Shown: one piece after another, positions 1 through 14,532 of the stretch
Position numbering within the stretch: position 1 is the first letter of the stretch
Layout: each line of letters begins with the position of its first letter
Source of the DNA: Mameliella sp. MMSF_3455
GTDB taxonomy: Bacteria > Pseudomonadota > Alphaproteobacteria > Rhodobacterales > Rhodobacteraceae
DNA: 64,000 bases
Assembly (NCBI RefSeq): GCF_030733205.1
Contig: NZ_JASHJL010000003.1
Location: forward strand, 124,001-188,000
Reading direction: 5' to 3'
Notes under the pieces: model-generated
Told to the model about the DNA's origin: nothing
The model's database searches: none
What the model saw: only the letters and a program-made list of their open reading frames with translations
Program-made: the position numbers and the translations under genes

Positions 1-327
1 AGCTGCTGCAAACTGATCCTGGATGATCGAAGGGTAGAATATCCTGAAAAGGCGGAAATCCCCGAGTTGCTGAAGTTCCTTCGCAAGGAGATCAAGATCA
101 TGCCAGATGGGATTGACGAAAGCGCCAAAGGAGCAAACGAAATCAGAGGTATCCTGACCAGCTTGGGTAATATCGCGCATTCTCTCGCTCCATTGCGGAA
201 CGCATATGGCAAGGGCCACGGCCGCGGCCGCGACTTCAAGGGGCTTCAACCACGCCATGCCCGTCTTGCGATTGGAGCCGCCAGCACATTCGTCGATTTC
301 GTTTTGGATCGCCACCTGACCCAATAG
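1..327 (+). CDS. Abi_C-domain abortive-infection-like protein, 3' fragment (5' end outside window)
   Basis: The reading frame is open from base 1, so only the last 108 residues are visible. They contain the pattern of the abortive-infection C-terminal family (Abi_C): an N-terminal 'SCCK.ILDD' segment, a central helix, then 'LAPLRNAYGKGHG' and 'RHARLAIGAASTFVDFVLD'. In this family the domain ends HEPN-like or otherwise uncharacterised proteins often found near phage-resistance genes; its biochemical activity is not established. The stop is TAG at 325-327. It is transcribed towards the DUF2971 gene (convergent, 175 bp apart). The identity of the missing N-terminus cannot be judged. Confidence 0.7.
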   Translation, partial: SCCKLILDDRRVEYPEKAEIPELLKFLRKEIKIMPDGIDESAKGANEIRGILTSLGNIAHSLAPLRNAYGKGHGRGRDFKGLQPRHARLAIGAASTFVDFVLDRHLTQ

Positions 328-502: not shown

Positions 503-1258
503 TTAGCTGTTGAAGGTGGGCGCATGCCAATCGGGGGGATCGTAGATTTTGGATCGCTTGATGTCGCCAGTGAAACCAGTGATCTCCCGCAGCCTCTCCT
601 TGTCCGCTAACCAAGTTGTTCGATCCCGGTTAGGATCGGCCATGATCTGCGTAATCATCTCATGTGGATTAACGGCATAACGGTATAACCCTTTGTCATC
701 GTAGAGATTTGCATCACCAAAATAGATCAGTCTCACCTCGCATTCATGCTTGAAAGACCGTCGCTTGAGCAGGAGGCTTTCTGCAAGCCGCGACGCGCTA
801 ATGTATAATCGGCCGCCATTCTGGACGTAGGCCTTTAGTTCTTCTTCGCGCTTATAAAGAACTTTGCCGATAAAGCAGGTGTCCTGCGGCATCTTGGGAT
901 GCTTCTGAACGAGAGCGGACAATAGCTTGCGCGGTGTCGACCGAATCCGAATAAACCGGCGGTTAGGGTCGTTCGCGTAGATGCCCCACATCGCTTCCGA
1001 CAGGTTCTCACGCGACCAACATTGGCCAACAAAATCGTCCCGGAACCCGAATTCGAAGGGTTCATTGTTCAGGATACCTCCAAGCTTGAGTTGGAAATTT
1101 TCAAACTTATCCTTCCATTTGTGGACCTGACTTAGAACATTCTCCCGGTTGGTAAAAATACTGATGACATATTCTTCAGGCATAATTCTGTAGACATGCT
1201 GATCAAGCTCGTCTTCTGATAAATTGAGCACACAACCTTCCGTCGTCGCAGGTCCCAT
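503..1258 (-). CDS. DUF2971 domain protein
   Basis: 251 residues. The sequence has the layout of DUF2971 proteins: an 'MWGIYANDPNRRFIRIR' segment (W-x-x-Y-A in this family) in the middle and a later 'KHECEVRLIYFGD' segment with the conserved E-x-R-L. The biochemical function of DUF2971 is unknown. I chose the ATG at 1256-1258 because a GGGGGAGAA Shine-Dalgarno lies just upstream; the frame extends 16 codons further but that extension overlaps the upstream gene. It starts 4 bp after the stop of the Cys-His-Asp protein gene, so the two are almost certainly co-transcribed and translationally coupled. Confidence 0.7.
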   Translation of the reverse strand: MGPATTEGCVLNLSEDELDQHVYRIMPEEYVISIFTNRENVLSQVHKWKDKFENFQLKLGGILNNEPFEFGFRDDFVGQCWSRENLSEAMWGIYANDPNRRFIRIRSTPRKLLSALVQKHPKMPQDTCFIGKVLYKREEELKAYVQNGGRLYISASRLAESLLLKRRSFKHECEVRLIYFGDANLYDDKGLYRYAVNPHEMITQIMADPNRDRTTWLADKERLREITGFTGDIKRSKIYDPPDWHAPTFNS

Positions 1259-1262
1259 GAGA

Positions 1263-2135
1263 TTAATTCTCCCCCAGCACAATATGTTCTGAAAAGGCCG
1301 GCGCAATATAATCGTTCCAAACTTGAGCCCCTGTCAGTCGGTCGCCAGCGCCGTTTATCTCCTCAAGCACCACGTCGCTAATCCGCACACCTGCGGGCAC
1401 ATATCGAAGTTTCAATTCTTCAATTCTAACCTCTCGGCTGGGGAAATTACGGCTGAATTCCTTGAGCTGTGGGACGAGCCGGTGGTGAAGCTGCATGTCG
1501 ATCCGCCCCTCTCTTTGGGCATAGGACGCTCGCAATTCGGCGCCGACGACGTCATCAATTGTTGGCCTGGTCAGAGACGTATTCTCAACCGCGACGATCG
1601 ACGGCGTATATGTGTTCATTGCGTCGCCCGGCGGATTCTGAAGCCGGATAGTAGGGTCAACAATTTCGAACGGCGGAGCGACAACCCAGGCATGTCCAAG
1701 TTCAGCACCAGCGAAGTCTGGGGTGTCGCACATGCACTGGCCTCGCCAGAGATTCTCGAACTCAACCTCCATGATCATTGAGCCCTTGAGGCCGAAGCTC
1801 CAGACCCCAAGCCGGTCGAGGATACGCTGCATCATCGACGAAGCATGAACACAACTACGATGCATATTTTCGCGTTCGAATAACTCTGCGAGGAATTCCG
1901 CTAATCGCGGAACGATTTCGCGGGCTCGTTCATCATATTCAGCCGTGCGCGGACGCGATTTCACCCATATCGCATACTGGTCTAAGAATTCACCGTTGCT
2001 ACGTTCCTCGGCCAAGAATGCCGGCTGGTCGTAGAAGCCAAACTGTGCTGTATCAATCCCAAGCCGACGCAACCTTTGATCCACCGTTGCATATTCCAGC
2101 TTTCGGGCAGCCGCCCGTCGTTTTGCCTCGCCCAA
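1263..2135 (-). CDS. Putative transglutaminase/papain-fold protein of unknown function
   Basis: 290 residues. From the chosen start I see a candidate catalytic triad: Cys95 in 'HRSCVHASSMMQRILDRLG', His148 in 'LGHAWVVAPP' and Asp160 in 'FEIVDPTIRL'. The order C...H...D with 'HAW' and 'VDPT' is typical of transglutaminase-like or NlpC/papain-like cysteine enzymes. The start is probably the TTG at 2133-2135, which gives an N-terminus MGEAKRR and has an AAGGGGAG ribosome site 6-7 bp upstream; a further upstream TTG at 2165 is possible. First gene of a two-gene unit with the DUF2971 gene. Whether it cuts, crosslinks or deamidates anything is unknown. Confidence 0.55.
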   Translation of the reverse strand: MGEAKRRAAARKLEYATVDQRLRRLGIDTAQFGFYDQPAFLAEERSNGEFLDQYAIWVKSRPRTAEYDERAREIVPRLAEFLAELFERENMHRSCVHASSMMQRILDRLGVWSFGLKGSMIMEVEFENLWRGQCMCDTPDFAGAELGHAWVVAPPFEIVDPTIRLQNPPGDAMNTYTPSIVAVENTSLTRPTIDDVVGAELRASYAQREGRIDMQLHHRLVPQLKEFSRNFPSREVRIEELKLRYVPAGVRISDVVLEEINGAGDRLTGAQVWNDYIAPAFSEHIVLGEN

Positions 2136-2602
2136 AGTCCGCTCCCCTTGGTCAGTGTTTCGCAACTAACATCTCCCGTCCCTACGTCAATATTACTCGA
2201 TTGCCAAACGGCGCATTGAATGAAAGGTCGACCGCTTACTGTGGTGACTTAGGTCGGCCACGGTAGGAGGGCGGCGACGTCGGACATGGGCCAGATCGGG
2301 CTCAAACCGGTAATTCGTTGAAGGCCTCACTAAGGTCGGCTTCGGGCCGTTCGCTAAGCTTTGGCAGTTCAGGCGCAAAGCTGCCATTCGTTGAAAGTAT
2401 CCCGAGTATAGCTCTGGGCCGAGAGGATACGGGCAGCCGCCGTCGCCCAATCGACCAAAGCAGACTCAATCACTCAACTTTCACTTCATGTCAGCGCGCT
2501 GCTTTTCTCCCAACCCGATCCTGGAAGAGATGGACAGGTTCCCTGAGACGAGCCCGACGATCTTGTCCTACCCCTGATGCGAGGTCCGCCCCGACCCGAG
2601 CC
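2136..2602. other. Non-coding stretch between two minus-strand genes
   Basis: 467 bp between the end of the STAND gene and the start of the Cys-His-Asp gene. Short open frames occur on both strands, but none has protein-like composition or a ribosome site. It must hold the promoter of the two-gene unit, but I cannot pick a convincing -35/-10 pair. No strong terminator was recognised. Confidence 0.5.
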
Positions 2603-5600
2603 TCAGCTCGGCTTGCGAGGGACGGAAGCGACCGCCTGGGCTTCGGCTGCCGCTGCGACGCGTTGCTCCAGATCATGCGCCTCGGCGACACCAACCGCCA
2701 CCAGCCGGCCCAACACCCGATCGATCCGCGTGCGCGCCGGGTGGCCAGGTTCGAGCAATCCCGGATCTTCGCCAACACACGCTTCAAACCATTGCATAAC
2801 GCGGCCGCCGACGCCCGCCGCGATCCACAGATCCGGTGACGTCGTGCGACCGAACCAAGCGTCGACTGCGTCCAACAGAAAACCAAGATGGCGCGAACGC
2901 GGCGCGACCAGCAGCAGGTTCATCGTGCAGCGCGCGACGAACACCGTTGGTCCCCCGGGCAACATCGGGCGGAGTATAGGTAGAAATGGATCAACCCGGT
3001 CGAACACGGTTGGCACCAGATAGCTGTGCGTCCCGGTGATCGGCCCATAGGTATTGAACAGCATTTGCCCGATGACGCCACCGCTATTCAGGCCGATCCG
3101 AGCTTCGCCTGGGTCGAGGATGCTCCGCCACCGGCTGAGCTTCATCAGCCGCGTGACGAGCTTTTCTCGTAGCGCCACTGGCCGTTCCGGCGCGCGGCTG
3201 GTGTGGTTGAAGTAGAGCACGTCAGCGGCGTGCTGGACCGTCTGCGCGACCTCGGCAAAAGGCGCGTCGGGCAGGTCGGTCACGAACGGCAGATCGGCGG
3301 CGAATGCCGCATCGTCTCCGTCGAGCAGCCGCTCGGCATACAACGCGTAATATTGCAAATTCCAGTCGGTAGGCTCGCGGCTGATCTCGGCGTCGGCCGC
3401 TTGGCCCAACCCATTCATGCGGCCTGTCCATTCAGCATAAGCCGAGACGATCTCCTGCCGCCAGCCGATGGCGTTCGCGGGCGCCAACTGTATGATTGCC
3501 AGCCAATGGGCCCCCGCCTGGTGATCGGCGTGAAGGATCGTTGGCGGAACGTCGATCGCCGTCTCCAGCGCGTCGTCGACATCGAACTCTTCAGGTGTGA
3601 CTGATCCCGGCACCCGCATCCGGCTGGCCCGGCGCAGATTCGGTCCCTCCTCGGGCCAAGCGGGCCAGTTCGGTTCAGCGCCGCCATCAAGCCAGGCCAG
3701 TTCGGCTGTCACCGCCGCGTCGGTCCCGGCGGCACGCTCCGCTTCGAACGCCGCCTTCGCCGCCTCGTCTTCCGGTTTGTGGCTTTTCCAACGCCACGTC
3801 ATGCTGGAAAAGGCCGCCCGCATCATCGCTTTGAAAAGACGCGGTTCGATCTCCAAGATGCGTGGGACAGCCGCCGCTACCGCGGGGGCTGCCGCCCGAT
3901 CCTTGCGTGTCGCAAGCGCGACCAGCGCATCGCGATCCGCGGTTTTACTCAGCCGGGCCCAGAGATGGATCAGTGCAAGGATCGCAATCGCCGGGCGGTT
4001 GTAGCGCAGGGTCTCGCGAGACCCGCTGCCTCGATCGGATTTCTCCTCAAGCGTGATCCCGATAACTTCCCGCACCCAGGCTTCATGTGCTGCCAGCAGC
4101 CCATCGTCGCCGTCACGCGCGACGAGCAGCGCCGTCGTGATCAGCCGCGTTGCGCGCGACTTGAGCGCGTCAGTATCGCTGCCATCGGGCACGTCGCCCT
4201 CGGCATAGGCGACTGCGTCGCGTGCGGTTTCGGCCGTAGCATACGTCCCACCGTCGACCGCCATCGAAATGCGCGCTTCCATCCCGCTCGCCTGAACCGA
4301 CACATCCCGTTTGGCTTCGAGCGCCGCGAAATGCGCGGCTTCGTCTGGGGGCGACCGATATTCGAGATTGCCGTCCTCCCGCTCGAACCAGTTCGCCAGA
4401 GTGAGGACGTTAAGCGCATAGCGGCCGGCGAACTCAGGTGCGCTCAAAGTCGCGTGCGCGGCGTAAGGTTCGAGCGTCTCGACCGCCGTAGCGAGCGCTG
4501 CTCGCAACCCGTTGCCGACTGGCTCGTCGGCCAGAAAATTCGGCAAGATGTCGATCAGCGAATAGCCGCGCGAGGGTCTTGCCTTCAGATCGGCCAAACG
4601 CACCGGACCCTTCGGCTCATCCTTCAGTCCCAGCGTATCACGCCCTGCCTCCATCTGGTCATGAATCTGCCGGGTGCGATCTTCGGCAAGGAGCTGCGGG
4701 CTCGCGAGGAACGGCGCGAGCGCTACACGCGCGACGCTGCCGTGCGACAACAACACGTCGATCGCGATGAGGAGATAGGCAGCCGCGCTGCCCTCTGGGC
4801 CCAATATATCGGCGAGCACGTCCTCGACCGGATCGCCGTCATCGAGCCGCTTCTGGCTCCACGCCTCGAGCGCGAGTAGCCCGGAAGCGACCGCATATTC
4901 GTTGCCACGGCCTCGCGACCATTCATAGGTCCAACTCCAGGGGAATAGGCGCGGCCCCTCGCCAAAGTCGACGGTGATGACGTCTTCGCCTGGCTCGCGC
5001 CCATCGGTGTGAAAAGCTATCGCTTCATCGACCAGCCCCCGGATTAACGCCAGGCCTTCGGTCGGCGCCGCGTTTAGCAAGTCGAGAAACGGCGGCTGCG
5101 CGGGCGAGGGCGGCAGATAGTCGCTATCAGCAAAGCTAAAGGCGTCCCGCATCGCGCTGTCCCTTCGAGTCCGCCCACGAGTATTCTCGATCAAGCTCGC
5201 TTGAACCATCACCGCCAGTTCGGCTGGCGCGACGGGAGCGATCACGCTCGAGAACTGGCGCAATTCCTCGATCTTGTGATGGTCGCCGTCGCCCGTGATT
5301 GCGGTGAGATAGGCCTTGAGGGCATCGGGCGCGAAGGACCCGAGCAGCATCGCCATTTGCCGGAGCTTTTTGATCGTCTGCCGCGCATCGCCTGACCAGC
5401 GCGCGCGTCCCTCAATCCCGGGGATCGTGACCGGCATGTCGCGCAGATCGAGCTGGCATAGCCAGTCGAACAGTAGCCGGGCCGTTCGCTCGGCAAGCGA
5501 CGGGAGCATCTTGAGGAAGAAGATTTGTATCTCGACCAGCTCGACCACGGCGTCGATCGCCGACATTGGCACCTCGGCGGCGTGATCAAGTATCCAGCGC

Positions 5601-7762
5601 AGCACCAGGACCGACGATCCCGTCACGTCGGTTCGAAACGAGCGCGGGAGGTTGATCTCCGATCCATCGGGCAATGTGATGATGTCGGCTGCCGCCTGCG
5701 TCTCGACCGCGACGAAAGTAGTTGACAGCTCGGTCAAGAGTGCCCCGCCCTCTGCGAGCAGCGAGGCGCTCGACTTTTCAAGCAGATCGGTCGCGACTTC
5801 GGACCTGACCAGGGTGAGGATCGCTTGTCGGCGCCAAGAGCCGTGCGCGCTCGGAGGCGACAGGTGCTCGAGCAGATCGTGCCAGGCACTTGCATCCTCG
5901 CCGGTCTCGAGCACGAGCCGCGCGGCGATCTCGATACCGCGGGCGACGCGCGGCGACACGGGCCCGCCCAGGTCGAACACTGCCAGGCGGGACGGGTCTT
6001 CGGCGAGGTAATTCCCGATCGCCCAGTCGCGCAGCACGTCGTGATTGAAATCGAGTCGGTCGGGCCGGACCTCGCGGAGCGACTGAGCACCGAGCAGATG
6101 GTTTCGCGCGGACGAATCCTCGTCGAGATCGATTCCGGCGTCGCCCTTGAGGGCGGCAGTCGCCAGTGCTCTGAGGATTCGCTGCGCTGCCCGCACTTCG
6201 GCCGTCGGCGCGCCATCGGCGCCGATCCACCAAAGCTGCGCAAGCCCGGCCTCAGTTCGGACCGACGCGGCGCTCGGTTCGCGGAGCAGTCGCGACAAAC
6301 GGTAGAGGTTGCGCGCGAGTTGCGCTGCGGGATGGCCGGCATTGAGCAGCATCCGTAGCTCGGGCGCCTGATCGGTCAGGATCGCGACTTCTTCGTCCGA
6401 CAGCGCTCCGACCTTGACCTCGTGCATACCGCCCAGTGCGGTCGAGATCTGGTCGTCGAGCCATGGGATGGCGTCGCTGGCGCCGGTCTGCCGCGCGGTT
6501 GCGATCACAGTGAAGCCGGGTATGGCGCCGGCGGCCCGCAGCAGCTCGCTGATCGTGCGCTGTCGCCCCGCATCATCGACCATGTCGATGCCGTCAATGA
6601 AGAGGTAAGCGCCACCGCTCGCCGCCAGATCGGTCAGGAAGGCATCCGCCGATCCGGGAATGCCGAGGGCGTTCGCCAAATACAACCAGCCATTAGGGGG
6701 CGTCGCCTCACGGTCGAGAACGATGATCGGGGCATTTGCGGCAACGCGCTCGGCATAGTGGCGAAGCACCCAGGATTTGCCGACGCCGGTATCGCCGCGC
6801 ACGACGATGAAGCGCTGCGTCTCTACCGCATCGTCGAGCGCTGCGACCGCGGCCAGCCGCGGCAGCGTGACGCCTGCGACGTTCGTCCCGATAGGCGAGA
6901 GCGTGTTTTGCGCGAGCTCGGCGAGCCGCGCCCGGGCCGGGCCGTATTCGCGTTCGCCGGCAAGCTTGAAATCGGCCTCGGCGAGGTTGGCTTTGAGTGC
7001 AGCGGTATCGATCTCGCCGCCCCGCGTGCCGGTCTGGATCGAGAGATCGACGAGGCGGCTCCACAGTGCCTCGGCGCGTGCGATCTGCTCGTCCGCCAGC
7101 GCCATCCGCGCGAGCGCCAAGCCGTAGGTGCGAGCGATCGGCGCGCTTGCCTCGAAATCAAATTCGAGGATCAGTATCCGGCGCAGCAGCCGCCAGATCG
7201 TCTCGTTTTCGTCGGTGACGCCGCCCGCGACAAGATGCTCGCGCGTCGTCTCGACGAACTTGCGCATGTCATCGTTCGCCACGCCCGTGGCCTTCAGACG
7301 GGTGAAAAACTCGTCCGCTGTGGCCGCGCTGCGCGCCCAGCCCAGCACGTCTTGATATGCACCCGATATCTTGCGGCTGGTCCGCTGCGTGGCAATACCG
7401 AACAGATGGCGCTCCGCCGGGACGTCCCCAATGGTGCTGCTGGCAATCTGTAGTGCGACATCCTTGTAGACCGGGTCCTTCGGCGAGAACTGGATATCGC
7501 GCTTCGACTGGATTTCGAGTAGCGTATCACCGCTGGCGCCGACGCCCGTGATGATGAGGTCGTCGAGCTTGAACCCCTGCTCGACGCCTTGGAAGCGCAC
7601 GCCCGTGACGCGCGCGGACGGCAGCCCCGGCGCCCGGTTGCAGGTCAGAAGCGCAAGCAGATACAACGCTCCGAGCTCGCCCTCAATATAGGCGCCTGCC
7701 GCGCCGCGCGATGCCGGGCTTGAGCCAGGTTCAGTGTCGGAGGTATTTTCTACTTTCGCCAT
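2603..7762 (-). CDS. Large STAND-type NTPase with N-terminal DUF4297/Cap4-like nuclease domain (Avs-like defence candidate)
   Basis: 1719 residues. Residues about 15-110 look like the DUF4297/Cap4 PD-(D/E)xK nuclease fold: 'GAYIEGELGALYLLALL', then an acidic 'KLDDLIITG' (Asp67/68) and 'LLEIQSKRD' (Glu83-x-Gln-x-Lys87). A P-loop NTPase follows, with Walker A GDTGVGKS near 323-330, Walker B 'YLFIDGIDM' near 386-394, and a downstream 'VIATARQ' sensor-like strand, the order of STAND ATPases. The remaining 1200 residues are Ala/Leu/Glu-rich and apparently helical, as expected for a sensor made of helical repeats. This nuclease-NTPase-long helical sensor layout matches antiviral STAND (Avs) proteins, but I cannot assign a type. 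The frame opens with a TTG; I chose the ATG at 7760-7762, five codons in. It stands alone in the cargo. Confidence 0.7.
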   Translation of the reverse strand: MAKVENTSDTEPGSSPASRGAAGAYIEGELGALYLLALLTCNRAPGLPSARVTGVRFQGVEQGFKLDDLIITGVGASGDTLLEIQSKRDIQFSPKDPVYKDVALQIASSTIGDVPAERHLFGIATQRTSRKISGAYQDVLGWARSAATADEFFTRLKATGVANDDMRKFVETTREHLVAGGVTDENETIWRLLRRILILEFDFEASAPIARTYGLALARMALADEQIARAEALWSRLVDLSIQTGTRGGEIDTAALKANLAEADFKLAGEREYGPARARLAELAQNTLSPIGTNVAGVTLPRLAAVAALDDAVETQRFIVVRGDTGVGKSWVLRHYAERVAANAPIIVLDREATPPNGWLYLANALGIPGSADAFLTDLAASGGAYLFIDGIDMVDDAGRQRTISELLRAAGAIPGFTVIATARQTGASDAIPWLDDQISTALGGMHEVKVGALSDEEVAILTDQAPELRMLLNAGHPAAQLARNLYRLSRLLREPSAASVRTEAGLAQLWWIGADGAPTAEVRAAQRILRALATAALKGDAGIDLDEDSSARNHLLGAQSLREVRPDRLDFNHDVLRDWAIGNYLAEDPSRLAVFDLGGPVSPRVARGIEIAARLVLETGEDASAWHDLLEHLSPPSAHGSWRRQAILTLVRSEVATDLLEKSSASLLAEGGALLTELSTTFVAVETQAAADIITLPDGSEINLPRSFRTDVTGSSVLVLRWILDHAAEVPMSAIDAVVELVEIQIFFLKMLPSLAERTARLLFDWLCQLDLRDMPVTIPGIEGRARWSGDARQTIKKLRQMAMLLGSFAPDALKAYLTAITGDGDHHKIEELRQFSSVIAPVAPAELAVMVQASLIENTRGRTRRDSAMRDAFSFADSDYLPPSPAQPPFLDLLNAAPTEGLALIRGLVDEAIAFHTDGREPGEDVITVDFGEGPRLFPWSWTYEWSRGRGNEYAVASGLLALEAWSQKRLDDGDPVEDVLADILGPEGSAAAYLLIAIDVLLSHGSVARVALAPFLASPQLLAEDRTRQIHDQMEAGRDTLGLKDEPKGPVRLADLKARPSRGYSLIDILPNFLADEPVGNGLRAALATAVETLEPYAAHATLSAPEFAGRYALNVLTLANWFEREDGNLEYRSPPDEAAHFAALEAKRDVSVQASGMEARISMAVDGGTYATAETARDAVAYAEGDVPDGSDTDALKSRATRLITTALLVARDGDDGLLAAHEAWVREVIGITLEEKSDRGSGSRETLRYNRPAIAILALIHLWARLSKTADRDALVALATRKDRAAAPAVAAAVPRILEIEPRLFKAMMRAAFSSMTWRWKSHKPEDEAAKAAFEAERAAGTDAAVTAELAWLDGGAEPNWPAWPEEGPNLRRASRMRVPGSVTPEEFDVDDALETAIDVPPTILHADHQAGAHWLAIIQLAPANAIGWRQEIVSAYAEWTGRMNGLGQAADAEISREPTDWNLQYYALYAERLLDGDDAAFAADLPFVTDLPDAPFAEVAQTVQHAADVLYFNHTSRAPERPVALREKLVTRLMKLSRWRSILDPGEARIGLNSGGVIGQMLFNTYGPITGTHSYLVPTVFDRVDPFLPILRPMLPGGPTVFVARCTMNLLLVAPRSRHLGFLLDAVDAWFGRTTSPDLWIAAGVGGRVMQWFEACVGEDPGLLEPGHPARTRIDRVLGRLVAVGVAEAHDLEQRVAAAAEAQAVASVPRKPS

Positions 7763-7990
7763 TACATTGATGTGCAAACGATCGCACGCGTGGTCAAGCG
7801 AAACGGGCGTCCGCGGGGACTTAATTGAATTGATGCGGACCGATTTCTGATTTGCCGTCCTTCTATCTCAATTCATGCTGGCGCGACCAGGCGTCGTCAA
7901 CTTCGATGTTCTTACACCCAAAGTGGCGCTGCCAATAGCAGTCGGTGACCGGGCTGGTTCGAAGCTGATGTCGATCTCTTATGCCTTCGT

Positions 7991-8386
7991 TCAGGAATCA
8001 TGAGGGGAATGGGGGTCTTCGACGCTTAGATCGATATCCGCTGGGATGCGTCCCCTCGCCTTCGCAAAAGCATCTCCGAATGCATCTTCGCTATCGATTT
8101 CTTTGTCCGAGATAAGAAGTGCCAGATGACCCCCGCATGCATCAACGTAGCGCTCGATCGACTGGAGGCTCGGCACCGGCCCGGTCAGGGCTTCCAACCT
8201 TGCAATCATGGATTGCGTCATTCCTGCCGCCGCAGCCACTTCATCCTGGGTCAGTCCCCTTGCATCTCGCAGAGCGCGTAGCCTGACGGCAATCCCGCGC
8301 TTGCGGGCGTTCTTGGCTTGATGCTCCGCGAGCTTTGGATGCGCACGCTGAAGCGCGTTTCGGAGGGATCTGTGACTCTCAACCAT
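7991..8386 (-). CDS. XRE-family HTH regulator, HigA-like, no visible toxin partner
   Basis: 131 residues from the chosen start. A classic XRE helix-turn-helix covers about residues 30-85: 'IAVRLRALRDARGLTQDEVA' then 'MTQSMIARLEAL' and 'PSLQSIERYVDACGG', followed by 'HLALLISD' as in HigA-type antitoxins. I favour the ATG at 8384-8386 because GGAG lies 9 bp upstream; the ATG at 8401 is an alternative. A perfect 16-bp palindrome sits 30 bp upstream, as expected for autoregulation. HigA antitoxins normally follow a HigB toxin gene, but no toxin-like frame exists upstream or downstream, so it may be a stand-alone controller of nearby cargo. Confidence 0.75.
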   Translation of the reverse strand: MVESHRSLRNALQRAHPKLAEHQAKNARKRGIAVRLRALRDARGLTQDEVAAAAGMTQSMIARLEALTGPVPSLQSIERYVDACGGHLALLISDKEIDSEDAFGDAFAKARGRIPADIDLSVEDPHSPHDS

Positions 8387-8415
8387 GATCAGGAACTCCA
8401 TCTTGGAGCCGTAGT

Positions 8416-8431
8416 ATAGCACACTTGCTAT
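8416..8431. promoter_or_regulatory. Palindromic operator candidate upstream of XRE gene
   Basis: ATAGCA-CACT-TGCTAT, a perfect inverted repeat with 6-bp arms and a 4-bp spacer. It lies 30 bp upstream of the chosen start (15 bp upstream of the alternative ATG at 8401). The position and symmetry fit an autoregulatory site for the XRE protein. This is inference from position; no binding motif is known to me for this protein. Confidence 0.45.
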
Positions 8432-8845
8432 GCTCTTCGGAGGGGCATGATGCTGACACTGACTACTGGATGTTGCGAGCATCACTTCAGCATGGAGCAG
8501 CTGCGCCGCCAGGGGTTGCCGCTCCGGGCGGCCTCAAAGCGCAAAGTATTCCCTGATTTCAGCCGACGGCACGCCCCTCTAAGCGAATCGCCTCGGGTCT
8601 CCTTCACTGAACGCTCATTTCTTCGAATAGACCTATAGGGCTAAATTTTGTGTTCAAACTTGGGCAACCACCAAACGGAAACTTCCCGAGATCCCTGCCT
8701 TCTCGTCAACGTGCAGAAAAAAGATCCAATTAAATACAGCTACTTGTGATTTTTTCGGGCGGCAAACGGCTGGCGGATTTTTCGTCGCCACGGGGTCGCC
8801 CCACTATTCTCGCAGACAATAATGGCCCCAAAAAAGGTCTAAAGG
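8432..8845. other. Non-coding stretch between XRE gene and tnsA
   Basis: 414 bp between divergent genes, so it holds the tnsABC-tniQ promoter. I see no protein-like frame. An AAAGG ribosome site precedes the tnsA ATG. A GCCC-N9-CGCA stretch at about 8798-8814 faintly resembles the reverse complement of the right-end repeats, but only one copy is present and the match is partial, so I do not call a transposon end here. Confidence 0.4.
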
Positions 8846-9556
8846 ATGCAGCTCGAAAACAACATTGCCGATAATCCCGCTCGCACGATTTACAAGCGAG
8901 GTCTGCAAAAGAAGGTGAACCGTCAGGCCTGCCGCAAGGCGATGGGCATTATTGACACGGAGAGCCTCGGTGAATCCATCATCGTCGTGGCAGCTGAGGT
9001 CGACCCGAGGGTTCGCCGGGTCTTTCCCCAACCCACGACTTTTGACCTGCACACTGGCGAAGCCTACCCGACCAAGACCGCTCTGACCGAGGCGGTGCAC
9101 GGGACGCGTTACAAGCCTTGGGTCTACACGCCTGACTTCCTGTTCGAGCTTGTAAATGGACAGACCGTCTTCGTCGAAGGAAAGCATAGTCGCTGGCTTC
9201 GCAGCAACCCAGAGTTCAGCCGTTTGGTCGCGGCCATGGAGCAACTCGGTCATCGACTTACTCTGGTCACGGAAAAAATGTTCACTCGTGCGGACCATCG
9301 GAATCTCCGTATTCTCCGGGCCCTCCCGAACCGCAGTCTGGAACCTGCAATACGTGAGTTGATCGAGACGCAGTTCCCGCGCAGCGTATCATTTGGAGAA
9401 GCCCAACGGTCCTTTGGCCTGACGCGAGCGGAAGTCTATGCGGCCCTTTTCCAAGGGCTTCTCGCGACCGACCTCTCACGCGCCCCTTTCAGCGATCGGA
9501 CGAAGCTTCTCCGCGTAGGCGGTGATGTATCGCACCTCGAGGTTTTGCCGCTATGA
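8846..9556 (+). CDS. tnsA: TnsA-like transposon endonuclease
   Basis: 236 residues. TnsA is the restriction-enzyme-like nuclease that cuts the 5' ends of a Tn7-type element and allows cut-and-paste movement. The PD-(D/E)xK core is visible: Glu43 in 'LGESIIVVAAEVD', Asp97 in 'WVYTPDFLFEL', and Glu111-Gly-Lys113 in 'TVFVEGKHSRW'. These correspond in order to E63, D114, Q130 and K132 of Tn7 TnsA. The C-terminal 70 residues look like the winged-helix part that contacts TnsC. ATG with AAAGG upstream. The stop overlaps the tnsB start (ATGA). Confidence 0.9.
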   Translation: MQLENNIADNPARTIYKRGLQKKVNRQACRKAMGIIDTESLGESIIVVAAEVDPRVRRVFPQPTTFDLHTGEAYPTKTALTEAVHGTRYKPWVYTPDFLFELVNGQTVFVEGKHSRWLRSNPEFSRLVAAMEQLGHRLTLVTEKMFTRADHRNLRILRALPNRSLEPAIRELIETQFPRSVSFGEAQRSFGLTRAEVYAALFQGLLATDLSRAPFSDRTKLLRVGGDVSHLEVLPL

Positions 9557-11487
9557 ACCAGCTACAAGCATATGATGGTCGCCATCTTCGGAACGGAGAG
9601 ATCCTATACCGTGTGATCGGACGCGTCCAAGATAAGCCGTCCGTCGTTCTCGATCTTAATGGAATGAGGACTGAGATCACCCTGGAGGAATTTCATCGGC
9701 AGATTGCCCTCGGAAATGTCTCCGAGGGCCAAGAGCCGGTATTCTGCGACCGTATCATGAGCGACGATGAGATTTCGGAGGCAGCCTTCCGCAAGCGCGT
9801 CCTTGAACTCGCCGACCGCTACCAGGAGTTGGGCCTCAAGTGGGACGAGGTAATGGACGCGATCCGTATCAAGTTGCAAAATGATCCGCGTTTTGCTTCG
9901 CGCGCGTCCAAGCTCCCGGCTGTCCGGACAATCCAAAAGTATCGAAAAGATTATTGCGCAATGGGTCAGCTTGGCCTGGTTGATAAGCGAGACCAGTCCG
10001 GAAATTATACCGTTCGCTATGATGAAATTTTCCGCGAGGTCGTCCTCGATCTTCTCGAGAGTTCTTACCTAACCTCAGACCGCATGAACATGACAGAGCT
10101 GGTTCGTGAGTCGAGGCTCCAATATCTGAAGCGCTTCTCCGAACAGCGACCGGAAGGAAAACCGGGAAATCACGGCGAAAAAGCTATAAAATCGATAATC
10201 GATAGCTACATCCCTCATTCTGATGTCATCAAGCGGCGGCTGGGAAAGAAGGCCGCGCGAAAAGCGCTGCTCCAAGCTGGCAGCTTTCAGATGATCGAAC
10301 ATGCCTACGATCGGCTCGAAGTCGATTCTACACAGGCAGACATCTTCGTAATCTATGATGGTAAGCTGATCAGGCCATGGGTCACGCTGGCGGTGGATGC
10401 GGCGTCCGGTTTCATCGTAGGGCTCGTTGTTTCCCTGGAGAACCCCACTGGACTGACCACTGTAACCGCGCTCTACGAGGCGATGAGAGGCAACGACGAA
10501 GAATTTTTCGATCGGTTCGGCATCGAGAACCGGGTGCATGTGGCAGGCCTTCCTCTCACGGTGGTAGCGGACCAAGGGTCTGAAAACTCCGGTAGCATAC
10601 TCAATCGCCTGCTATCGACGACCGCCATCGAGCTGCAAAAGAACATCCCTGGGCATCCAGAGAAGAAACCGTTTGTCGAGCGCGCCATGTCGACTTTCAA
10701 GAACTTCGTAACGAGGCTCGACGGCGCCACGCAGACCCGCGAGTTGTCCTCCAAAGAACGTTATGAACGGGCAAAGGCAGAGGCATGCTGGACCTTTGAT
10801 GAGTTCGTTCAAAAGGTGCAGGTGTGGCGCTACGACGTGTATGGCGTCATTCCGCGTCGGCGTGTGCAGTCGCCGCTGAAGCGCCGCGAGAGCCCCATTG
10901 AGAGCTGGCGTCGCCTGTCCACCGAATACTACGTGCCGGAGCCGCCCCGTAAACAGCAGCTCGCACAGATGTTCTTCCATTATGCGGAGAGGAGGATCGT
11001 CCACCGCTACGGCATCGAGGTTGGATACGTTCAGTATTCCTCTAAAGAGCTGCGACATTTGAAGAAAAACACGAAAGAAAAGCTCGAAGTTGATATCCGC
11101 ATTAACCCGGCCGACATCCGGGAGATAATCGTTTCTCATCCGAAATCTGGCGAAGCATTCTACGTGCCTTGCAAAGATCCCGACTTGCCCGCGATTTCTG
11201 TCGCGGAAAGGGATCGCATCATCGCGCTAAATCGGCGTGACCCGGACGACTATCTCTGTGCTGCGGAGGTCCTCGCGGCCCTCGCAGAGGGTAAGCATCA
11301 TAAGCCGTCTAAAGCGACGACCAAAGGGCGCAAGGAACAACATGCTGCCCGGCGCAAGCGGCGAGATGATGAAATCATAAACCGCAGCAATGGCCCCAAT
11401 AGCTCAATGCCTTCTGGCAATGTCTCCCACCCGACGATGCCGGTGCTCGCCCCGAAGCAGCGTAACCGGATCTCCGCACGAGGATAA
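9553..11487 (+). CDS. tnsB: TnsB-like DDE transposase
   Basis: 644 residues. This is the Mu/Tn7-type DDE recombinase that binds the element ends and joins 3' ends to the target. The catalytic triad is visible: Asp258 in 'LEVDSTQADIF', Asp340 in 'LTVVADQGSENSG' and Glu376 in 'KPFVERAMSTFKNF'. An N-terminal helix-rich region (about 60-250) would hold the end-binding HTH domains, and a C-terminal beta-barrel region (about 430-540) plus a basic tail complete the family layout. The last 60 residues are rich in Lys/Arg/Ser, as in the TnsC-contacting tail. It overlaps tnsA by 4 bp and ends 5 bp before tnsC. Confidence 0.93.
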   Translation: MNQLQAYDGRHLRNGEILYRVIGRVQDKPSVVLDLNGMRTEITLEEFHRQIALGNVSEGQEPVFCDRIMSDDEISEAAFRKRVLELADRYQELGLKWDEVMDAIRIKLQNDPRFASRASKLPAVRTIQKYRKDYCAMGQLGLVDKRDQSGNYTVRYDEIFREVVLDLLESSYLTSDRMNMTELVRESRLQYLKRFSEQRPEGKPGNHGEKAIKSIIDSYIPHSDVIKRRLGKKAARKALLQAGSFQMIEHAYDRLEVDSTQADIFVIYDGKLIRPWVTLAVDAASGFIVGLVVSLENPTGLTTVTALYEAMRGNDEEFFDRFGIENRVHVAGLPLTVVADQGSENSGSILNRLLSTTAIELQKNIPGHPEKKPFVERAMSTFKNFVTRLDGATQTRELSSKERYERAKAEACWTFDEFVQKVQVWRYDVYGVIPRRRVQSPLKRRESPIESWRRLSTEYYVPEPPRKQQLAQMFFHYAERRIVHRYGIEVGYVQYSSKELRHLKKNTKEKLEVDIRINPADIREIIVSHPKSGEAFYVPCKDPDLPAISVAERDRIIALNRRDPDDYLCAAEVLAALAEGKHHKPSKATTKGRKEQHAARRKRRDDEIINRSNGPNSSMPSGNVSHPTMPVLAPKQRNRISARG

Positions 11488-11492
11488 TTAAC

Positions 11493-12479
11493 GTGACCGA
11501 ACTTTCCCTGAAGGGCTTACGGATTTCGCATTCCCGTTACGACATTGCACTGAACCAGATGCTCGAGGCAATCGAGTTGGCTGGCTCGGATGGGGTATGC
11601 ATTCCCTTTCTTGGCCCGTCCCGCGTCGGTAAATCCGACCTCCTGTTAGCGGTCGAAAGCAAGGTTTCTAAGCTTCGGTCCGGCCCAGGATACATGATCC
11701 CATCGCCGGACTTTCTGTCCGGCGAAATCTCTCCCAAGCCGAATGATTCGGAGATCTACGCATCGATCATTCGGACGATGGGGCGGGCTGGGGCTAATCC
11801 CAAGCTCGCCCTCCTGAAAGATCGGATGTATGATCTTCTGGAACAACGCGATGTTCGGATTGTGGCCCTCGATGAGTGCAGCCATTGCGCCGAACCCGGC
11901 GCGAACCTCACTCGCCGTGCAGCTGCGGACCATTTCAAGACCATCGTGGATCGCTCGGGTGTCATACTCATCCTTATGGGGTTGCCGAAGTTCCAACGCT
12001 TGATTGATGAGAACGAGCAATTCGCGGCGCGGTCCATGGCCACGATCGAGCTCCAACCTTATCGCTGGACGAACCCGAACGACCGGAACGAATTCACAAC
12101 AGTAATCTACAGTATCTTTGAATACCTTGAGGAGCGCGGTATCTCGCTCGAATTCGACTGGATAGACATGACACGGCGCCTTTTCGCTGCGTCTGGCGGT
12201 CGCGTCGGCATGGTGATCGAGCTGCTCGAGGTCGCTGTCCGAAAGTCTGCGCGGACCAAGGCCTTGGCCTTGTCGGATATGGGGAAAGCCGCCAGCGTAA
12301 GACTTCAAGGGTTATCTCGTCTCGCGCCGATCTTCGACCCCGAACCACCACAGGATGACGTTCTTCTGCGGTCCTACGCGAAGGTCATGAGGGACGCAGG
12401 ACTAAAGCTCCCTGATCCGAATTCGTCGCTTGAGCTCGACGCTTTTCGGCAGGCGGACGAAGGGGCGTTGACGGAATGA
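11493..12479 (+). CDS. tnsC: TnsC-like AAA+ ATPase, transposition regulator
   Basis: 328 residues. TnsC couples target-site proteins (TniQ/TnsD) to the TnsAB transposase and senses target immunity. The Walker A motif GPSRVGKS is at 41-48 and Walker B 'VRIVALDECSHC' has Asp127-Glu128. A sensor-type 'VILILMGLPKF' strand follows. The start is GTG at 11493-11495 with GAGG upstream. The gene overlaps tniQ by 4 bp (ATGA), so the four genes form one operon. Confidence 0.9.
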   Translation: MTELSLKGLRISHSRYDIALNQMLEAIELAGSDGVCIPFLGPSRVGKSDLLLAVESKVSKLRSGPGYMIPSPDFLSGEISPKPNDSEIYASIIRTMGRAGANPKLALLKDRMYDLLEQRDVRIVALDECSHCAEPGANLTRRAAADHFKTIVDRSGVILILMGLPKFQRLIDENEQFAARSMATIELQPYRWTNPNDRNEFTTVIYSIFEYLEERGISLEFDWIDMTRRLFAASGGRVGMVIELLEVAVRKSARTKALALSDMGKAASVRLQGLSRLAPIFDPEPPQDDVLLRSYAKVMRDAGLKLPDPNSSLELDAFRQADEGALTE

Positions 12480-14257
12480 TCCCTTACACTGACGAAAGCC
12501 TTCTCGGCTACATCAAGCGGCGCTCTGATGCGGAAGGTTTTCCCGAGGCCAGGGGCTTCCTGACGACGCTCGGGCAGACCTACGGGCGCGCTACAGTCGA
12601 GGAGCCAGAGCGGCTGGCTTTGGAGCTCGGACTCGACTTGGCCACGATGGAGCAGATCCTGCCTGCCAAGCAGCCGATGGACGCCGCCCTCGACTGGTCG
12701 TTCCATCGGATGCACCGCGACCCGGTTTGCCCCGCCTGTATTGCCGCGCGCCAGCCCCGGCGGAAAGAGTGGCGACACGCCTTGGTCACGGCATGTGCCG
12801 AGCATGAATGCCAGCTAATCGATCAGTGTCCTGGTTGCGGTGACGATCTCACCCTGCTCGGCGATGGGTATGCGGCCTGCCTGTGCGGCACTTCCTATGG
12901 CGACGCGAATGCTGTGCCCGCCGGCCCTTTCGAGACTGAGTTCGCAAAGTTAATCGCGGGACACTCGGCCCACATGGGCGGCATAGACCTCGGTTCAGAG
13001 GAAGGCCTGCACGCGGCCCGCACCGTGTGGTTTCTCTGTGCGAATATGGCTCGCGCGCGGACCGGTAAGGAAGGCAAGGCAACTTATCCTAAGTCCGTCG
13101 AAGAGTCTCGCGTTCGACTTGCACGCATCGAACCGCTGCTCATCGATTGGCCGAAGGCATTCGACGATCATGTAATCGAGCGATGGAATACCCAGGGTGC
13201 AAAAGGACTAACGGCCGCCACACGTTTGGGCCCATGGTATCGTGGCCTTCTTAGCCAGAAAGGTGCACTGGCCGAGGCATTGCTGTCCCGCTGCCTCATT
13301 GTCGTCAGCACAGTGTGTGGCGACGCATACAAAACCCGTCGACATCAGGATGGCGCGGCATGGATGAGCGCGGCCCACGCAGGAGATATCTTGGGCATAC
13401 GCAGCGAGAGGATTGTCGAGGCAGTCCGTGCTGGGGTCATGGAGGGATCGCAGGGACGATCAGGCACGGGCCACCTTCATACGATCGTCAGAACGCAGGG
13501 CATAGAAGAGGTCCGTGAGCAACGGGCGCGATCTGCGACCAAGGAAAAGGTTCGGAACATGCTTGGGGTTTCGAGGAAACAGTTCGAACTCATGGAAGAG
13601 GCAAGGTTCTTCGGTGCCGAGTGCAGAGTGTCAACTCATCCCTGCGTCGATGGAAATTTCGACCTCAAAAACATCTGCACTGCGGTAGATGGAATCCGGC
13701 AAGTGGCCCGGGTTGAAAGTGCCGGAGCCGATGAGATGGTGGCCTTTCGCGAGATCAACCTGCGCAGGACGACGGATCGGAACGCGATTCTGAAGATTTA
13801 TCGCCTCATAGCGGACAAAAAGCTTCGAGCGGTCAAGTTCGCTGAGGGTGATAATCTCGGCGATGCGCTCTTCGACGCAGCGGAGATCGACCGCCTTCTT
13901 CAAGTTCATGGCGGCGCGCGGTCATGGACTGCTGGAGACGTTGCCGAGTTCTCGGGATGGAAACCCGAATGCGTCACCGGATGGTGCGAGCAGGGTTTGC
14001 TTCAGGCGACCAAAGGGAAGCGAGGCTCGTTCCACGTCTGGCAGATTACTGAGGAAGCGCTTTCGCAGTTCTATCGGGAATTTCATGTGGTCTCGGACCT
14101 GGCGAAGGAAGGCAAGACGACCTCGCGAAAGCTGCTCGCATCTCTCGCAGATCGCGGGATCTCTTCAGTCGGGTCGCAACCGGTAGGGACATCATCCCGT
14201 GGACATCTGATCCGAACCCGTGACATTGCCCGAATTATCGCGTTTCCCCCCTCCTAA
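12476..14257 (+). CDS. tniQ: TniQ/TnsD-family target-site selector
   Basis: 593 residues, longer than short TniQ proteins and closer in size to TnsD. The N-terminal TniQ domain begins 'MIPYTDESLLGYIKRRSDAEG' style. It carries a zinc-finger set: C-x2-C in 'DPVCPACIAARQ', then 'RHALVTACAEHECQL' and 'QCPGCGDDL', with further Cys in 'ACLCGTSY'. The C-terminal 400 residues include several HTH-like segments, for example 'VRNMLGVSRKQFELMEEA' and 'WTAGDVAEFSGW'. TnsD-type proteins bind a fixed chromosomal site, so this one may direct the element to the adjacent photolyase region; that is inference. No Cas genes are present, so this is not a CRISPR-guided transposon as far as the window shows. Confidence 0.88.
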   Translation: MIPYTDESLLGYIKRRSDAEGFPEARGFLTTLGQTYGRATVEEPERLALELGLDLATMEQILPAKQPMDAALDWSFHRMHRDPVCPACIAARQPRRKEWRHALVTACAEHECQLIDQCPGCGDDLTLLGDGYAACLCGTSYGDANAVPAGPFETEFAKLIAGHSAHMGGIDLGSEEGLHAARTVWFLCANMARARTGKEGKATYPKSVEESRVRLARIEPLLIDWPKAFDDHVIERWNTQGAKGLTAATRLGPWYRGLLSQKGALAEALLSRCLIVVSTVCGDAYKTRRHQDGAAWMSAAHAGDILGIRSERIVEAVRAGVMEGSQGRSGTGHLHTIVRTQGIEEVREQRARSATKEKVRNMLGVSRKQFELMEEARFFGAECRVSTHPCVDGNFDLKNICTAVDGIRQVARVESAGADEMVAFREINLRRTTDRNAILKIYRLIADKKLRAVKFAEGDNLGDALFDAAEIDRLLQVHGGARSWTAGDVAEFSGWKPECVTGWCEQGLLQATKGKRGSFHVWQITEEALSQFYREFHVVSDLAKEGKTTSRKLLASLADRGISSVGSQPVGTSSRGHLIRTRDIARIIAFPPS

Positions 14258-14287
14258 CCGACACGCCTCCTCGCGCACTATATGTAT

Positions 14288-14314
14288 GCCGCCAAGGAAT
14301 GCCTTGGCGGCTTT
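14288..14314 (+). terminator. Rho-independent terminator after tniQ
   Basis: Perfect hairpin GCCGCCAAGG / CCTTGGCGGC with an AATG loop, followed by a short TTT run. It lies 31 bp after the tniQ stop and ends the tnsABC-tniQ transcript before the element end. Confidence 0.8.
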
Positions 14315-14397
14315 CGGCATTTCTGGATGCTGGACTGCCGTCCGGATTCGTCGTATCAAAATGTCAGTCGGTCGCTGACTGCGAGCGGCACGCGGTA

Positions 14398-14458
14398 TGC
14401 GCAACATTATGGGCAAATCGCGCAAGACTTTGGGCGGATAGTGCGCAAACTATTGGGC
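14398..14458 (+). repeat. Three direct 17-bp repeats, putative TnsB-binding sites of the right end
   Basis: Copies are TGCGCAACATTATGGGC (14398-14414), CGCGCAAGACTTTGGGC (14419-14435) and TGCGCAAACTATTGGGC (14442-14458). The shared core is GCGCAA-N6-TGGGC or close to it, with start-to-start spacing of 21 and 23 bp. Two-turn spacing of about 20-bp sites is the signature of Tn7-type transposon ends. They lie 140-200 bp after tniQ. The orientation is the same in all three copies. Confidence 0.75.
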
Positions 14459-14515
14459 CTGAACCGACGATTTTCTTCAATGATCTAAGGCAGAGTACGT
14501 ACGGTTACGCGGTGT

Positions 14516-14532
14516 CCTACAGTTTTTGTAGG
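14516..14532. repeat. CCTACA / TGTAGG inverted repeat, possible element terminus with 5-bp spacer
   Basis: CCTACA-GTTTT-TGTAGG. Tn7-family elements end in ...ACA on this side and duplicate 5 bp of target. The left arm could be the element terminus, followed by a 5-bp target duplication. The right arm would then be either chance symmetry or the TGT end of a second element. It lies 57 bp beyond the last TnsB-like repeat. Confidence 0.35.

Follow-up and report, generated by a model that had tools for sequence, protein, structure and literature searches.

The protein of 1719 residues encoded at 2603..7762 on the minus strand of the window (the whole 64,000-nucleotide stretch of DNA analysed here) is best explained as a single-protein Avs4-type antiphage receptor, in which a putative portal-recognising sensor, a STAND NTPase and a predicted N-terminal PD-(D/E)xK-type nuclease are carried on one chain. 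We place the probability of this reading at roughly 0.7. It agrees with the original prediction in its general plan, since the Avs-type order of effector, STAND NTPase and sensor proposed there is supported by what follows.

On the strength of the homology to Avs4, we infer a course of events that leads from portal sensing through NTPase oligomerisation and nuclease activation to abortive infection. Recognition would fall to the C-terminal helical solenoid (approximately residues 640–1719), whose most likely target among conserved phage proteins is the portal. The STAND NTPase, with its Walker A and B motifs and HD motif, would then bind ATP and oligomerise, probably as in Avs4, and oligomerisation would bring together and activate the N-terminal PD-(D/E)xK-type nuclease (D68, Q85, K87). 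Cleavage of DNA by the nuclease would stop the infection, probably via cell death. Antiphage activity, oligomerisation, the nuclease fold and DNA as the substrate are all things that we infer. According to two published accounts, Avs1–4 have nuclease effectors that cleave the DNA of both phage and host, and they sense the terminase or the portal (PMC12931631), with the portal being sensed by Avs4 and the terminase being used by Avs1–3 (PMC12724215). From the homology, the phage portal is a somewhat better than even candidate for the trigger of the window protein.

The gene itself appears intact. The 1719-residue open reading frame of the original prediction, for which no strand had been stated, is confirmed as one unbroken, full-length frame that opens with an ATG at 7762 and runs to 2603 on the minus strand; the plus-strand frame over 2603–7762 is interrupted by stops. 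The aligned ATG start is present in the five closest relatives, and the whole gene aligns with its relatives in a 22-sequence alignment. Against six relatives, dN/dS is 0.14–0.29 over the whole gene and at most 0.43 in single regions; the gene is under purifying selection and has therefore been maintained as a working protein. A decayed gene is ruled out by these values together with the motifs conserved in the 22-row alignment. Nothing in the analysis suggests a housekeeping role for the protein. The 22-row alignment omits L001 (the window gene), L010 (the same as L003), L008 (a gene split between two open frames) and the rows that are short or partial, L016, L019, L026, L027, L029 and L031–L033, with L002, L015, L018, L023–L025 and L028 swapped for longer versions of the same genes (L044–L050); the distant alignment comprises nine rows (L041–L049), L050 being used only in the tree. 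Some analyses took subsets of the 22 rows (19, 17, 14 and 19), L012 and L059 were counted as one locus on account of an identical integrase, and L075, which matches PDC-M54A but contains an inner stop, was excluded.

The central part of the protein is recognisably a STAND NTPase with intact Walker A and B motifs and an HD motif homologous to that of Avs4. Its core, approximately residues 296–460 (6383..6877, minus strand), contains Walker A as G323DTGVGKS330, Walker B as LFIDGID up to D390, and R424, and is followed by an NTPase-associated helical or winged-helix-like part, approximately residues 461–640 (5843..6382, minus strand), with H574-D575, an HD motif common to five aligned Avs4-type proteins. 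G323, G326, G328, K329, S330, D390, R424, H574 and D575 are invariant in 22 sequences, which bears out the earlier placement of Walker A near residue 325 and Walker B near 390. The single sequence matches the Pfam models AAA_16 (E 8.8e-7) and nSTAND_NTPase5 (6.2e-4), both below Pfam's cut-off. In profile alignment with hhalign, residues 291–640 match Avs4 with a probability of 99.5 and an E of 2.7e-23, against 0.2 for a reversed control. Residues 1–660 and 640–1719 were modelled separately (AlphaFold, eight sequences each), at a medium level of confidence with mean pLDDT of 64.5 and 69.5. With the 1–660 model, Foldseek places Avs4 first at E 4.1e-11, with Avs3 next at 1.5e-7, and VIA, too, ranks 8dgf highest, at a Z of 13.7 with an rmsd of 13.7, a narrow lead over an archaeal ATPase at 12.7.

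The remainder of the protein is likewise related to Avs4. The original prediction had described helix-rich sequence here, and in the model the residues after about 640 are helix-rich, those of the 640–1719 model being almost entirely so. On profile alignment and predicted structure, this sensor (residues 641–1719; 2606..5842, minus strand) is homologous to the portal sensor of Avs4 over its full length. Against the PDB, VIA-align pairs the 640–1719 model with 8dgf_A, Avs4 with portal, at a Z of 18.6 and an rmsd of 6.4 over 920 aligned residues; the alignment extends to the last residue of Avs4 (1587), and the next chain is transportin 3 at Z 11.0. Foldseek likewise returns 8dgf at E 7.6e-13 with a query-normalised TM of 0.60, the first other entry having an E of 1.9e-5 and a TM of 0.16 and the remaining entries of the 50 listed rows staying at or below 0.21. 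With hhalign profiles built from 31 sequences of the family and its distant kin and from six Avs4-type sequences (one partial), query residues 276–1717 align with positions 156–1548 of the 1552 of the Avs4 profile at a probability of 100 and an E of 2.7e-50 over 1328 columns, and the reversed Avs4 profile gives 0.1. We assign the sensor to the Avs4 type because of these structural matches to 8dgf and this profile alignment. The same VIA, Foldseek and hhalign matches lead us to reject a sensor unrelated to known Avs types, and they do not support the earlier suggestion that the sensor could not be matched to Avs1–5 and that the trigger might be new.

Likeness to Avs4 is thinner at the level of single sequences and toward the C-terminus. 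Residues 900–1719 match Avs4 with a probability of 99.3 (reversed, 0.2), and residues 1061–1719 alone with a probability of 97.2 and an E of 3.3e-11 (reversed, 0.0). When the 22 closer sequences are used alone, the match of residues 1061–1719 is not significant (probability 14), nor is that of the C-terminal part with 14 sequences (probability 3), and the likeness of the C-terminal third thus reaches significance only once distant kin are added or structures are compared. The best PDB chain for the family profile is 8dgf (E 1.9e-11), with a main stretch at 284–769 and a weak second one at 851–1041; the single 1719-residue protein has no match in a PDB sequence search at E up to 1. The PADLOC Avs4 model matches the single sequence at 3.1e-4 and 14 of the 22 family members, at best at 2.5e-21. 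The NCBIfam equivalog for Avs4 (NF041815) matches at 5.7e-6 with 23.8 bits against a cut-off of 1500 bits, which places the protein outside Avs4 in the strict sense. A quick tree built on the NTPase together with the middle sensor gathers 19 family rows in one starred clade apart from five Avs4-type rows; the tree has 34 rows and 797 columns, is rooted on the Avs4 rows, and includes some long branches and rows that differ in letter make-up.

A rival reading is an Avs4-type receptor whose sensor surface has diverged too far from Avs4 and which senses another conserved phage protein, such as the large terminase, another component of the packaging machinery or the capsid. Conservation is lowest at the C-terminus, mean identity falling for close, middle and far relatives from 0.91/0.60/0.43 in residues 1–140 to 0.81/0.47/0.30 in residues 1421–1719, the C-terminal profile of the family alone is not significantly Avs4-like by sequence, and the terminase has precedent in Avs1–3 (PMC12724215). 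Since the sensor fold is collinear with that of Avs4 to its end, and profiles that include distant kin do align there, we regard this alternative as unlikely, if the most serious one, and retain the portal-sensing receptor as the preferred reading.

The N-terminus would supply the effector. A putative nuclease core, approximately residues 20–145 (7328..7705, minus strand), carries E27, D67, D68, Q85 and K87, and is followed by a helical linker, approximately residues 146–290 (6893..7327, minus strand), which is delimited by the secondary structure of the model and lies within the PDC-M54A match to residues 20–284 of the N-terminal piece. The acidic and E-x-Q-x-K motifs that had been noticed in the first 100 residues are present, as E27, D67/D68 and E83-x-Q85-x-K87. 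Among the 22 full-length sequences, E27, Q58, D67, D68, Q85, K87 and R88 are invariant and E83 is kept in at least 90%; all of the 27 N-termini compared, those of distant kin and a Hymenobacter protein included, share D67, D68, Q85, K87 and F152, down to approximately 20% identity. Lys87, which the original prediction had singled out for mutation, is an apt choice because it is invariant in both the 22-row alignment and the 27 N-termini. The PD-(D/E)xK pattern consists of conserved acids followed by (E/Q)xK, with elements in the order helix-strand-strand-strand-helix. The N-terminal model has a helix at 28–39, strands at 51–58, 68–74 and 80–84 and a helix at 97–108, all at low confidence (pLDDT mostly 40–60 over residues 21–140). 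Motif order and modelled elements thus suggest a PD-(D/E)xK-like domain, whose fold, because of the low confidence of the model, is predicted rather than proven.

Searches with the N-terminus point to defence candidates. The window protein matches PDC-M54A at E 3.3e-10, with residues 21–393 on positions 18–395 of the 1621-position model, and its N-terminus alone has a PADLOC match only to PDC-M54A (1.1e-4); PDLC04700, a PDC-M54A model, matches 17 of the 22 family members. With an E threshold of 0.1, DUF626_VIII (PDLC02918) matches 14 of the 27 family N-termini, the best at 1.2e-21; it matches a paralogue in the same genome at 2.1e-12 and does not match the window N-terminus at E up to 1. None of the Pfam nuclease models matches the 27 N-termini at E up to 1. 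A profile of those N-termini has three matches among PDB chains, with a best E of 0.06 and none a nuclease by name, which we take as chance. The 50 rows listed for the 1–660 model contain no nuclease folds; they cover the NTPase side and are uninformative on the N-terminus. Against the Avs4 profile, whose N-terminal part rests mainly on two E. coli Avs4 proteins, residues 1–290/300 score a probability of 0.1–0.3 in hhalign.

The same N-terminal type recurs on differing bodies, and on sequence grounds the module is portable. In a Hymenobacter aerilatus plasmid protein (L106:3095-8134), an N-terminus of the window type, matching PDC-M54A at 1.7e-13 over 43–385 with its motifs aligned, is joined to an Avs4-type body that matches Avs4 with 382 bits (best stretch 299–1144); this pairing suggests effector exchange. 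A 560-residue protein of the Agrobacterium plasmid pAt (L116:4917-6599) has the same N-terminal domain and no Pfam domain, and lies downstream of two trypsin-like protease genes. An 806-residue protein with the same N-terminal type was found by PADLOC scan (E 8.7e-38) in another proteobacterium (L118:1872-4292). These occurrences bear on a quite different proposal, namely that the window gene encodes a STAND protein for transcription or stress signalling whose N-terminus is degenerate and non-catalytic. Such a protein could explain why no Pfam nuclease is matched and why the fold is of low confidence; it would hardly be expected to keep D67, D68, Q85 and K87 in every one of the N-termini compared, or to share its N-terminus with other bodies, one of them beside trypsin-like protease genes. 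We consider this proposal very improbable and continue with the nuclease-bearing receptor.

The family is widely but thinly spread. We aligned 21 full-length relatives with 26–90% identity, scattered over Proteobacteria, several of them plasmid-borne and one on a predicted-virus contig, and tblastn and genome searches revealed a paralogue at 29% identity in the window's own genome; this second Avs4-like STAND protein of 1733 residues (L044:335-5533, G000:C83) combines a nuclease of the same type with a sensor that has diverged. Within the same family, 8 of the 295 genomes searched contain a match, as do 3 of 385 in the class and 13 of 398 in the phylum, counts that include the own genome, come from overlapping draws and contain some partial matches. 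One scan of genome contigs gave seven loci, with Monaibacterium among the matches. Relatives or pieces of them are found in 25 of 72,556 plasmid records (8 covering at least 80% of the query), and none of 50,697 phage records matches the 1719-residue protein. Four scans of viral contigs, three of them made with sub-alignments, returned one and the same contig each time, on which an integrase frame is present and phage-type regulator genes can be read from the sequence. This patchy distribution is consistent with a mobile defence gene.

The neighbourhoods of the relatives are varied. Some relatives lie near mobile or defence-like genes: that on Sinorhizobium pSymA has IS21, a type I restriction gene and a gene of the caspase family nearby, and that on a Polymorphobacter plasmid has two integrases and IS110. 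Another adjoins sugar-transport genes; transposase or integrase genes lie near several relatives. A tblastn search of 33 relatives' loci with the window's four Tns proteins, in which many flanks are short and other Tns types would escape detection, gave as its only match a 22% TnsB-like one in L054. Such associations, the plasmid records and the transposon that carries the window gene would fit a STAND protein that guards against other mobile DNA, such as plasmids or rival elements, instead of phages. A sensor homologous to one for portals would, on the other hand, have no obvious use against plasmids, and antiphage genes are themselves usually carried on mobile elements. We therefore judge this alternative to be improbable, and favour phage as the target.

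The transposon in question extends from −1120 to 14521 (15,642 bp), its left end lying outside the window, and the STAND gene is part of its cargo. The Tn7-like setting given in the original prediction stands: TnsB-, TniB- and TniQ-type domains, both ends and a 5-bp duplication are found. On the plus strand lie a putative tnsA (8846..9556), assigned by position and size and matching no Pfam model at E up to 0.01, tnsB (9553..11487; Mu-transpos_C), tnsC (11493..12479; TniB) and a tnsD/TniQ-family target selector (12476..14257). The inverted ends read TGTAGGA.../...TCCTACA and have repeated internal sites; at the right end (14399..14521) the repeated sites at 14399–14458 match the left end inverted, with the terminus ...CCTACA at 14521. 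The target duplication GTTTT occupies 14522..14526 and −1125..−1121, its left copy directly after the stop of a gene that, from a reading of its sequence, is gyrB. With TnsB, TnsC and TniQ genes, inverted ends that start with TGT and a 5-bp duplication, the element is a Tn7-like transposon. Part of the joined flanks is matched in 25 of 61 family genomes, the own genome counted; other genomes of the family have the gyrB flank by itself, and no relative with the complete empty site was found. The word gyrB is absent from the main text of two Tn7 surveys.

At least two other defence-type genes accompany the STAND gene, as had been noted before. One matches the defence candidate PDC-S31 (503..1306, minus strand; PADLOC E 1.9e-65), and the other carries an AbiJ_NTD3 domain, its 3' end at 1..327 on the plus strand, its frame starting at −1082 and its Pfam match (E 6.3e-56) falling on the part outside the window (L097:18918-20000). 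A 36% relative of the PDC-S31 gene is located in L058, downstream of another family member and on the opposite strand. The cargo also includes a gene for a 300-residue protein (1263–2165), for which neither Pfam nor PADLOC gives a match at E up to 0.01, and an HTH regulator-like gene (7991..8485, minus strand; HTH_31, E 2.7e-12), which lies just upstream of the STAND gene in the same orientation and is possibly its regulator.

More broadly, we tentatively propose, at slightly less than even odds, that the family is a large, unnamed sister clade of Avs4 in Proteobacteria, in which a portal-sensing body is combined with a different, portable nuclease, one toxin cassette being placed on several unrelated triggers. 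This proposal draws on the occurrence of the N-terminal module in an Avs4-type body on a Bacteroidota plasmid, in DUF626_VIII and in the protein beside trypsin-like proteases. If it holds, sensing of the phage portal would be far more ancient and widespread than present Avs4 annotation shows, the curated Avs4 cut-off would miss a whole clade whose receptors share the sensor fold, and effectors would be exchanged on a fixed sensor, here for a nuclease type without a Pfam nuclease match. The clade would also allow one to test directly whether the portal remains the trigger once identity has fallen to approximately 10%. In the literature searched, mostly without subscription papers, we found neither a description of an Avs4-like clade with this N-terminus nor the name PDC-M54.

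Among known systems, Avs5 (9nc9 and 9jap) has an NTPase core like that of the window protein, with a Z of about 12, and the cores of Avs2 (9o4e, E 0.0027 with the family profile) and Avs3 (8dgc, by Foldseek) are alike as well, each ranking below Avs4 for the NTPase half; Avs5, Avs2 and Avs3 do not appear in the 50 listed sensor rows, although they may match further down. Cap4/DUF4297 (PF14130) has its motif residues in a similar order, acidic residues and then QxK. The original label of a DUF4297-like nuclease is not supported by profile searches, in which PF14130 matches none of 22 whole proteins or 9 distant ones (E up to 0.1), none of 27 N-termini (E up to 1) and nothing in the own genome (E up to 0.001), and hhalign of the N-terminus against three Cap4 proteins, a weak three-sequence profile, gives a probability of 0.1. 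DUF626_VIII, which we take to be the type VIII retron effector, has an N-terminal domain like the family's in a model of 474 residues. PDC-M54A (PDLC04700/04702) aligns through both the N-terminal nuclease and the NTPase region, in a stretch of the window protein that is the only one below an E of 0.01 and ends at residue 393. The closest system is Avs4 (8DGF, NF041815). Its N-terminus has no detectable similarity to that of the window protein, a remote tie being possible given the few reference sequences, and the window family differs in lying far under the NCBIfam cut-off and in a separate starred clade. From approximately residue 276 to the C-terminus, at some 9–15% identity in alignments, the two have in common the STAND NTPase, the HD motif and the whole helical sensor.
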